Assembly (NCBI GenBank): GCA_014378485.1
Contig: JACMNO010000061.1
Location: 186,001 to 250,000, forward strand
Source of the DNA: Bacteroidia bacterium
Lineage (GTDB): Bacteria > Bacteroidota > Bacteroidia > B-17B0 > Aurantibacillaceae
DNA length: 64,000 nucleotides
Direction: 5' to 3'
This document shows, one piece after another, positions 43,707 to 46,667 of the stretch (its first letter is position 1; each line of letters opens with the position of its first letter). The notes below the pieces were generated by a model, which was not told the DNA's origin, searched no databases, and saw only the letters and a list, made by a program, of their open reading frames with translations. Both the position numbers and the translations under genes were made by a program.

Positions 43707-45233
43707 ATGAAAAAAACTACCAAAATAAAAATCACTCCTAAGCTTAAAAAAATACAGAAATGCTTAACCGGCATCAAGGGCTTTGATGAGATTACAAAAG
43801 GCGGGCTTCCGAAAAACAGAACCACTTTAATTAGTGGAAGTGCCGGTTCAGGAAAAACTCTTTTTGGGATTGATTTTTTGATCAATGGTGTCAAATACAA
43901 AGAAAATGGCGTGTTTATGTCCTTTGAAGAAACAGCAGATGAACTTTATAAAGATGTGGCTTCTCTCACCCTGGATTTAAAAGCACTTGTTGCGCAAAAA
44001 ACAATTGCGCTTGAGCATGTTGTGTTAGAACGCAAAGATATTGAACAGAGAGATTTTAATCTCGAAGGACTATTCGTTCGCCTGGAACATGCCATAGATT
44101 CCGTTAACGCTAAACGTGTAGTTTTAGATTCTCTTGAATCTCTTTTTGCAGGCATCACGGATGATGGCATTCTTCGGTTAGAGATCAAAAGACTTTTTAG
44201 ATGGCTTAAAGACAAAGGAGTTACGGCAATCGTTACCGGTGAGCCGGAAGAAGATTCTTATACGCATCACGGCATAGAGCAGTATGTATCCGATTGCATC
44301 ATTCTTCTCGATAACAGAGTTGATGACGAAGTTTCCGTTCGTAGAATTCGTGTGATTAAATATCGTGGTTCAAAACACGAAACAAACGAATTTCCATTTG
44401 TAATAGATGACGATGGACTTTCAGTAATTCCTATCACTTCAGCAGGATTGGATCAACCGGGAACAGCTAAAAGAGTTTCAACCGGAATTCCATCGCTCGA
44501 TAAATTGTTTAAGAGTAAAGGATATACAAAAGGCAGCACCATACTTGCTTCGGGTACTGCCGGTACCGGAAAAACAAGTTTAGCTGCTGCATTTGCCATA
44601 GAAACATGTAAACGTGGAGAACGCTGTCTTTTCTTGTCCTACGAAGAATCAGCCGGACAACTTACTCAAAACATGAAATCGATAGGTTTTCTTTTTGAAC
44701 CATGGATAAAAAAAGGACTCTTAAAGATTCAATCCACCAGACCAACCTTTTTTGGTTTAGAAAAACATTTACTCGATCTATATAAGACCATTGAAGAGTT
44801 TAAACCACAATCTGTTGTGTTAGATCCCCTCACAAGTCTTATTGGAGAGGGAAGCCCACGAGAAGTTCGTTCGATGATCACCCGCATGATCGATCTTTTA
44901 AAATCAAACACCATAACCGGATTTTTTACGAGTCTCGTTTCTTCAACCGCAGTAAATGACACGAGCGGTGAAATTGGCGTATCTTCACTAATTGACACCT
45001 GGATCGTAGTTAGAGAATTAGAAGAAAAAGTGGGTAAAAAACGTATTCGCGGACTCTATATTGTTAAATCCCGCGGCACTGGTCACTCAAGTGACATACA
45101 CAAATTGGTTTTGAGTGATGATGGAATCTCATTAGAACCAATGGAAGCTGAGTCTACTTCGAGCCCCGATCCGAAAAAAAGAATCGGTACCGGTATTTCC
45201 GGAAAATCAAAGAAGAAAGAAAAGAATATTTAA
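43707..45233 (+). CDS. KaiC-like double RecA-domain ATPase
   Basis: A 508-residue protein read from the ATG at 43707; a TTG at 43674 would add 11 unlikely residues. It has two KaiC domains. CI (about 15-245) has Walker A GSAGSGKT (44-51) and catalytic Glu-Glu 74/75. CII (about 256-480) has GTAGTGKT (283-290) and Glu313/314. GVSSLIDTW places Ser426 and Ser427 at the positions of the cyanobacterial phosphosites S431/T432. No kaiA or kaiB is in the window. The stop overlaps the cheB start (TAATG), so the two are translated together. A Kai-derived signalling switch rather than a full clock is likely. Confidence 0.92.
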   Translation: MKKTTKIKITPKLKKIQKCLTGIKGFDEITKGGLPKNRTTLISGSAGSGKTLFGIDFLINGVKYKENGVFMSFEETADELYKDVASLTLDLKALVAQKTIALEHVVLERKDIEQRDFNLEGLFVRLEHAIDSVNAKRVVLDSLESLFAGITDDGILRLEIKRLFRWLKDKGVTAIVTGEPEEDSYTHHGIEQYVSDCIILLDNRVDDEVSVRRIRVIKYRGSKHETNEFPFVIDDDGLSVIPITSAGLDQPGTAKRVSTGIPSLDKLFKSKGYTKGSTILASGTAGTGKTSLAAAFAIETCKRGERCLFLSYEESAGQLTQNMKSIGFLFEPWIKKGLLKIQSTRPTFFGLEKHLLDLYKTIEEFKPQSVVLDPLTSLIGEGSPREVRSMITRMIDLLKSNTITGFFTSLVSSTAVNDTSGEIGVSSLIDTWIVVRELEEKVGKKRIRGLYIVKSRGTGHSSDIHKLVLSDDGISLEPMEAESTSSPDPKKRIGTGISGKSKKKEKNI

Positions 45234-45826
45234 TGCGAGCTGGAAGGGGCGTGGACGCATTACATCCTAATTTCGTTGTTGGTATTGGCGGCTCAGCCGG
45301 AGCACTTCCTTCATACAAAGCGCTCTTGGAGGCTCTGCCGTCTGATACAGGTATGGCTTTTGTCATCATTTCTCCTATGAGTCCGAGCGCTCATAACGAG
45401 TTAGCTTTGATTTTGGAAAGTCACACTAAAATGCCGGTAATTGTGGCTTCCAAAAAAATGCCGATACGGCGTAATCATGTATATGTGATTCCTTCTGACC
45501 TAGATCTTTTCATTGAAGACGATACCTTCATAATTATATCTCCACGCGCTCATGGGCAAAATCAGATAGATTTATTTTTTATTTCTTTAGCAGAGGCAAT
45601 AGGCGCACGTGCAATAGGCGTCGTCTTATCCGGGTATAAGGGAGATGCCACACGGGGATGCAAGCGGATCAAAGAAAAAGGAGGAATAACCTTTGCTCAG
45701 GATGTTTCTGCCGAAGTGCCTAACATGCCTCTTATGGCTCAGGATTTTGGCAATGTTGATTTCGTGATGCCTCCCGAAAAAATTGCTGGTAAATTAAAAA
45801 GATTGGCAGCTGAAATTAAAACTTAG
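45233..45826 (+). CDS. CheB methylesterase-domain protein 1, catalytic His replaced by Pro
   Basis: A 197-residue stand-alone CheB catalytic domain with no receiver domain. VGIGGSAG gives the nucleophile Ser21 and VVLSGYKGDAT gives Asp138. Where CheB needs the catalytic His (position 48; IISHM in the second copy), this protein has IISPMSP, so Pro48. It is therefore expected to be inactive as an esterase or amidase and may bind substrate or compete. It overlaps kaiC by one base, implying coupled translation. No cheR, cheA or receptor gene is nearby. The paralogue at 46074 is the same length. Confidence 0.88.
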   Translation: MRAGRGVDALHPNFVVGIGGSAGALPSYKALLEALPSDTGMAFVIISPMSPSAHNELALILESHTKMPVIVASKKMPIRRNHVYVIPSDLDLFIEDDTFIIISPRAHGQNQIDLFFISLAEAIGARAIGVVLSGYKGDATRGCKRIKEKGGITFAQDVSAEVPNMPLMAQDFGNVDFVMPPEKIAGKLKRLAAEIKT

Positions 45827-46010
45827 GTACGAGTTGTGAAATTGGCTTATCTTCACTAATTAACAATGGATCATCGATAGAGAATTAGAAGAAAAAGCGA
45901 GTGAAAAACGTATTCGCAGAATATATATTTAGAAGTTGGCTCTACCCCAACTTCTAAACCGGAAAAGAAAGAAAGTAGCGGTATAGATGTAAAATCAGCC
46001 AAAGGATAAT
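45827..46010 (+). pseudogene. Decayed duplicate of the kaiC 3' end
   Basis: From 45829 the DNA aligns with kaiC from 44961 (shared TATCTTCACTAATT and TAGAGAATTAGAAGAAAAAG, then AAAAACGTATTCGC), with one single-base gap and in-frame stops. At 45931 it jumps about 80 bases forward to match the kaiC tail (45144 onward, GAAG-T-G--TCTAC). It has no open frame. It shows that the unit kaiC-3'/cheB was duplicated in tandem, with a breakpoint at the short shared ACGAG just after the cheB stop. Confidence 0.88.
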
Positions 46011-46030
46011 TTTTATTTATTCATTTATTA

Positions 46031-46075
46031 TAAATAAATAAATAAATAAATAAATAAATAAATAAATAAATAAAT
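46031..46075 (+). repeat. TAAA tetranucleotide repeat (11 units) ending on the CheB2 start codon
   Basis: Eleven uninterrupted TAAA units; the A of the last unit is the first base of the ATG at 46074. The preceding TTTATTTATT-rich stretch (46011-46030) can pair with the repeat. All three frames upstream contain TAA, so unit changes cannot switch reading frame but would change promoter-to-start spacing and leader structure. Confidence 0.92.
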
Positions 46076-46667
46076 GAACGCTAAAAGAGTCGTGGGTGCG
46101 CTACATCCGAAATTCATTGTTGGTATTGGTGGCTCATCTGGCGCACTTAATGCATACAAGTCGATACTGCTTGCACTGTCGTCTGATACAGATATGGCCT
46201 TTGTTATAATTTCTCACATGAATCCTACCGCTTATAGTTATTTAGCTAAAATTTTGTCTCGTTACACTAAAATGCCTGTAATCGTTGCTACTAATAAGAT
46301 GCCGATACGGAAGAATCATGTATATGTGATTCCTAACGACGCTGATCTTCTCATTAAAAACTTTGCTTTTAAAGTTTTATCCCCGCGCTCTTATGGGCAC
46401 AAGCAGATAGATGTTTTTTTTACTTCTTTAGCAGAGGCGATGGGCACACGCGCCATAGGTATTGTACTATCCGGGTATGATGGCGATGGAACAGAAGGAT
46501 GTGAAAAGATTAAAGCAAACGGCGGAATAACTTTTGCCCAAGACGAGTCTGCCGAAGTGCCACACATGCCCCTCACTGCTCAGGCTTCAGGCTGTATAGA
46601 TTTTGTAATGCCTCCGGGTAAAATGCCGGCTAAATTAAAAAAATTGGCGGCTGCAATTAAAACGTAG
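46074..46667 (+). CDS. CheB methylesterase-domain protein 2, intact catalytic triad
   Basis: A 197-residue stand-alone CheB catalytic domain. Ser21 (VGIGGSSG), His48 (IISHMNP) and Asp138 (VLSGYDGDGT) form the complete triad for glutamate methylester hydrolysis or glutamine deamidation. It aligns with the upstream copy without gaps; I count 131 identical residues of 197. There is no receiver domain, so control must come from another protein, most simply KaiC. The start codon directly follows the TAAA tract; the codon before it is a stop. Chemoreceptor targets are not encoded in the window, so the substrate is open. Confidence 0.9.
   Translation: MNAKRVVGALHPKFIVGIGGSSGALNAYKSILLALSSDTDMAFVIISHMNPTAYSYLAKILSRYTKMPVIVATNKMPIRKNHVYVIPNDADLLIKNFAFKVLSPRSYGHKQIDVFFTSLAEAMGTRAIGIVLSGYDGDGTEGCEKIKANGGITFAQDESAEVPHMPLTAQASGCIDFVMPPGKMPAKLKKLAAAIKT

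Follow-up and report, generated by a model that had tools for sequence, protein, structure and literature searches.

A Decayed kaiC Fragment between Two Unequal cheB Copies, the Probable Scar of a Tandem Duplication in a Bacteroidia Bacterium

Gene Organization at the kaiC-cheB Locus

The window, meaning here the whole 64,000-nucleotide stretch of DNA that was analyzed, carries a kaiC gene followed by two cheB genes, arranged head to tail in the order kaiC-cheB1-cheB2 (Table 1). The kaiC product scored 608 bits against NCBIfam NF006799 (cut-off 408), and among solved structures the nearest chains, 8db3 and 8dba (circadian clock protein KaiC), matched it from end to end. Both CheB proteins were recognized by PF01339, with scores of 149.4 and 166.6 bits, and both stayed far below the cut-off of the NCBIfam CheB models. 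They consist of a catalytic domain (residues 16–188 of 197) and have no N-terminal receiver domain. The noncoding gap before kaiC holds two near-identical small palindromes (TTGCTCC...GGAGCAA, 43112–43128 and 43201–43217), possibly a dispersed repeat.

Table 1. Features of the kaiC-cheB1-cheB2 Locus (Window Coordinates)
Feature	Position	Strand	Description
kaiC	43707–45233	+	two-domain KaiC-type ATPase, 508 aa; parent of the fossil; Pfam PF06745 in two stretches, 3.1e-107
cheB1	45233–45826	+	CheB catalytic domain only, 197 aa; start overlaps kaiC stop
cheB2	46074–46667	+	CheB catalytic domain only, 197 aa; strongly constrained
Upstream duplicated unit	44961–45832	+	kaiC 3′ part and cheB1 to the ACGA past its stop; from unit-versus-unit alignment
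Downstream duplicated unit	45829–46673	+	kaiC fossil and cheB2 to the ACGA past its stop; from unit-versus-unit alignment
Seam	45829–45832	+	ACGA common to kaiC (44961) and the sequence after the cheB stop (46670–46673)
Fossil head	45829–45929	+	decayed copy of kaiC 44961–45062; one 1-base gap, a frameshift
Fossil tail	45930–46010	+	weak similarity to the kaiC 3′ end; one frame open to a stop
Inverted repeat	45928–45958	.	perfect, 12 bp, 7-base loop: TTTAGAAGTTGG CTCTACC CCAACTTCTAAA
ATAA array	46030–46075	+	perfect (ATAA)11.5; extends into the cheB2 start codon

The Joint and the kaiC Fossil

An earlier note on this DNA had read the locus as a duplication and had proposed a pairwise alignment of the two units as a check. 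This alignment gave collinear homology between head-to-tail units, ending at 45832 and 46673, six bases beyond each cheB stop. The ACGAG that the note placed at both 44961 and 45829 is present at both positions. At related loci in other genomes, the sequence after cheB is TAGAAACGA (L053 and both copies in genome G069) or a close variant of it (L051 and L052), so the ACGA after the cheB stop is the ancestral state. The seam is therefore a clean joint, at which post-cheB sequence was linked to kaiC at the common ACGA. The flank TAGGNACGA is also common to the sequence after both cheB stops. Microhomology may have caused the joint; four shared bases by themselves are weak evidence of mechanism.

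The 184 bases between the two cheB genes had been described as a decayed end of kaiC. This description holds firmly for the first part, the fossil head, where about 100 bases had been expected to align with one gap and 87 of 101 were found to be identical. The head alignment scored 141, compared with a maximum of 31 among 200 dinucleotide-preserving shuffles. For the rest, the fossil tail, the resemblance to kaiC is weak: its score against the kaiC end was reached by 3 of 1000 shuffles, and that of the part past the hairpin by 16 of 1000. The internal deletion of about 80 bases claimed earlier comes to 81 kaiC bases (45063–45143), provided that the tail is aligned as chosen here. The 12-bp inverted repeat forms part of the fossil tail, and kaiC has no such repeat. 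Farther downstream, the (ATAA)11.5 array is the only perfect array of that unit of at least 32 bases in the genome.

The substitutions in the fossil head are distributed 8/2/4 over codon positions 1/2/3, and comparison with relatives placed 10 of the 14 differences from kaiC on the fossil side. Together with the frameshift, this pattern suggests that the fossil has been noncoding, and decaying, since it split from kaiC. At 19 of the 101 positions the fossil and the local kaiC agree against the majority of relatives, and four of these shared bases are absent from every relative. In longer matches, fossil identity was 85% to the local kaiC versus 73–78% to the kaiC genes of relatives. Besides the parent kaiC, no further copy of the fossil was found in the genome.

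Single-Copy Relatives and Distribution

The likelihood tree places cheB1 and cheB2 together as sister copies (support 95/96). The single-copy arrangement that the earlier note suggested looking for in relatives does exist: at eight loci in other genomes (L049–L055 and contig 73 of G069), one cheB without a fossil lies behind kaiC, or behind its 3′ end where contigs are cut. These cheB genes are 66–75% identical to cheB2. An intermediate state with an undecayed duplicate was found in none of the genomes examined.

Window-type kaiC forms its own clade (100/100), to which the remaining kaiC genes found in the genus do not belong. Among 20 genomes of the genus, one has a high-identity member of the cheB1/cheB2 family, as do 2 of 87 genomes from the order. 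Sampling 395 genomes at class level and another 395 at phylum level yielded no further close cheB. The kaiC-cheB pair is scattered across distant Bacteroidota. An empty-site comparison within the genus showed that mdh is conserved (about 90–98%). In none of the 14 relatives is mdh followed by any of the genes that lie right of it in the window, and the comparison accordingly yielded no empty site. Plasmid carriage found no backing, since all plasmid KaiC matches were below 60% identity.

The genome itself contains a second kaiC of the window-type clade, on contig C24 (L061, 4339–4962), truncated at 208 aa where the contig stops. It groups with relatives, at 91% identity to L051 and 77% to the window kaiC, and the same short contig carries a Usp-family gene. 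The related loci L049, L050, L052, and L053 likewise begin inside kaiC. Contig 120 of G069 (L058, 4960–5541) bears a lone cheB preceded by about 19 bases of kaiC end, ATGAAAAAAATAAATAACA, and the same genome holds an intact kaiC-cheB pair on contig 73 (L059, 1592–3701). The lone gene is probably another instance in which cheB was copied together with a remnant of kaiC. At L055 (975–3158), kaiC-cheB with 50–54% GC sits between stretches of 66–69% GC on a short contig labeled Nitrospiraceae, reflecting either transfer or mis-assembly.

Unequal Ages of the Fossil and the cheB Copies

Neutral ages were estimated with custom codon models, in which the two cheB copies were given equal time. The cheB split amounted to about 0.36 neutral changes per site per copy, versus 0.12 for the fossil head (from 11 of 101 sites). 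Forcing one age on both cost 6.2 log-likelihood units (2ΔlnL 12.4, 1 df, p about 4e-4), and fixing the cheB time at 0.12 was 20 units worse. By this measure the head of the fossil appears roughly one-third as old as the cheB split, in a comparison that assumes equal mutation of cheB silent sites and fossil and that has only 101 fossil bases to draw on. A single event without later exchange would give all parts of both units the same age, and the estimates depart from this, so one event followed by plain decay fits badly. The mismatch speaks for later exchange and does not count against duplication. At least one further exchange, either gene conversion or replacement by a diverged copy, likely took place after the duplication. 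No conversion tract was detectable inside cheB (longest identical run, p = 0.3).

These ages also bear on the order of events, which the earlier note had taken the fossil to give. That claim is not supported, because under neutrality the cheB split calls for an older fossil head, and because one genome cannot tell in which order the 81 bases were lost and the hairpin and ATAA array arose. Local duplication had also been presented as proven over two independent acquisitions. The sister relation of the cheB genes, the bases shared by fossil and local kaiC, the single-copy relatives, and the seam all support it; the word "proves" goes too far.

A Proposed History and Its Alternatives

We consider a local tandem duplication of the kaiC 3′ part and cheB, taken by itself, to be very probable. 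The ancestor would have carried a conserved two-gene unit of kaiC followed by a receiver-less cheB. Tandem duplication would then have joined post-cheB sequence to the kaiC interior at the common 4-base ACGA, producing kaiC-cheB1-(kaiC 3′ fragment)-cheB2. The useless kaiC fragment would have decayed, taking on a frameshift and substitutions with no preference among codon positions, losing about 81 bases, and gaining a hairpin and a growing ATAA array. Of the two copies, cheB2 kept its full catalytic triad, and cheB1, still directly coupled to kaiC, lost the catalytic histidine. Finally, gene conversion over a short tract, templated by the intact kaiC lying 0.9 kb upstream, may have restored some of the similarity of the fossil head to kaiC, and this proposed step would explain why the head looks younger than the cheB split. 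The conversion is suggested by the tempo mismatch only, for which it would be the simplest cure. The complete account, comprising duplication, decay, and later conversion of the fossil head, seems to us somewhat better than an even bet.

An unlikely alternative is the same tandem duplication followed by plain one-step decay, with no later exchange and with the slow fossil head reflecting rate variation. It explains the seam, the fossil, and the sister cheB genes with the fewest events, and just 101 bases oppose it. However, it needs the equal age of fossil head and cheB split that the likelihood comparison rejected, and carrying the age of the head over to cheB incurs the 20-unit penalty given above.

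In place of conversion of the fossil head, homologous recombination after the duplication may have exchanged one of the cheB genes, and possibly the fossil tail as well, for those of a diverged kaiC-cheB unit. Such a donor is conceivable given the second same-clade kaiC on contig C24, and the fossil tail and cheB2 do look older than the fossil head. However, cheB1 and cheB2 pair with each other against all relatives, and the C24 kaiC clusters with relatives rather than with the window kaiC. We regard this replacement as quite improbable.

The two cheB genes may also be an older tandem pair into which a 101-base piece of kaiC was later patched by templated insertion. Such a patch would be younger than the cheB genes, matching the tempo, and the tail is indeed far less kaiC-like than the head. 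Against this, the kaiC piece begins exactly at the ACGA that terminates the homology past the cheB stop, and the tail retains a weak, correctly ordered resemblance to kaiC; tandem duplication yields both at no cost, which leaves the patch very unlikely. Two independent cheB acquisitions or an assembly chimera, for which one could cite the draft state of the genome (117 contigs, 4.5% contamination) and the patchiness of the cheB family, are barely credible given the sister relation of cheB1 and cheB2, the flank after both stops, and a fossil nearest to the local kaiC. Independent acquisition was rejected on the cheB tree and that common flank.

Fates of the Two cheB Copies

The two copies now differ in their catalytic residues. 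Alignment to CheB of known structure showed that cheB2 retains Ser21, His48, and the Asp of its LSGYDGDG motif, which we take to correspond to S164, H190, and D286 of the Salmonella CheB triad. The cheB1 product retains Ser21 and also the LSGYKGD-motif Asp, and its catalytic His is changed to Pro (H48P). All ten other aligned family members have His48, and Pro occurs in cheB1 only.

Selective constraint was compared by codon likelihood. With free times, omega was 0.63 for cheB1, 0.18 for cheB2, and 0.20 for the others (difference p = 0.008), the free-times p-values being derived from model log-likelihoods. With equal time for both copies, omega was 0.40 for cheB1 versus 0.24 for cheB2 (p = 0.039). 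Of the two copies, cheB1 is the one that evolves faster. Omega = 1 for cheB1 was rejected with equal times (4e-5) but not with free times (p = 0.26), so without the equal-time constraint cheB1 could be drifting. An intact reading frame survives neutral substitution with a probability of 0.02–0.13, and the intact frame of cheB1 alone therefore says little. On these grounds, cheB1 is most likely a noncatalytic copy under relaxed constraint. A more speculative idea, which we think improbable, is that the locus encodes a KaiB-free signaling module of a KaiC ATPase and a receiver-less CheB-type enzyme, in which dead CheB1, retained beside kaiC, would regulate active CheB2 by acting as a binding partner or a competitor.

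Comparison with Known Systems

The locus is a known kind of event, a tandem-duplication scar, well preserved and with unequal copy fates. It shares with microhomology tandem duplications the head-to-tail order, the truncated gene at the seam, and the 4-base shared joint. Two traits set it apart: its seam seems to be of more recent date than the genes that were duplicated, which points to a second exchange, and an ATAA array has expanded as far as the start of the second gene. Within less than 2 kb, a joint, a decayed fragment, and two unequal copies preserve this bacterial tandem duplication in unusually legible form. The same record can mislead on timing, since the seam appears younger than the genes that it separates.

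The encoded proteins likewise combine familiar and divergent traits. Both CheB copies match the whole domain of CheB methylesterase (PF01339; 1chd, 1a2o, and 3sft), and cheB2 keeps the Ser-His-Asp residues; unlike that enzyme, neither has a receiver domain, and cheB1 is without the catalytic His. The window kaiC has the two ATPase domains typical of KaiC (PF06745, NF006799). In contrast to circadian kaiC, it precedes cheB, and its product scored 303 bits against the clock KaiC model TIGR02655, below the 546 cut-off. No PF07689 match for kaiB was found in the draft genome, which is 89% complete. The literature text searched gave no description of the kaiC-cheB pair, and the archaeal domain surveys and Kai surveys in it do not include the pair. 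At L054 (4660–8515), from Mucilaginibacter, kaiC-cheB adjoins a response regulator and a CheB-CheR-PAS-histidine kinase, neighbors that hint at the pathway of the pair.
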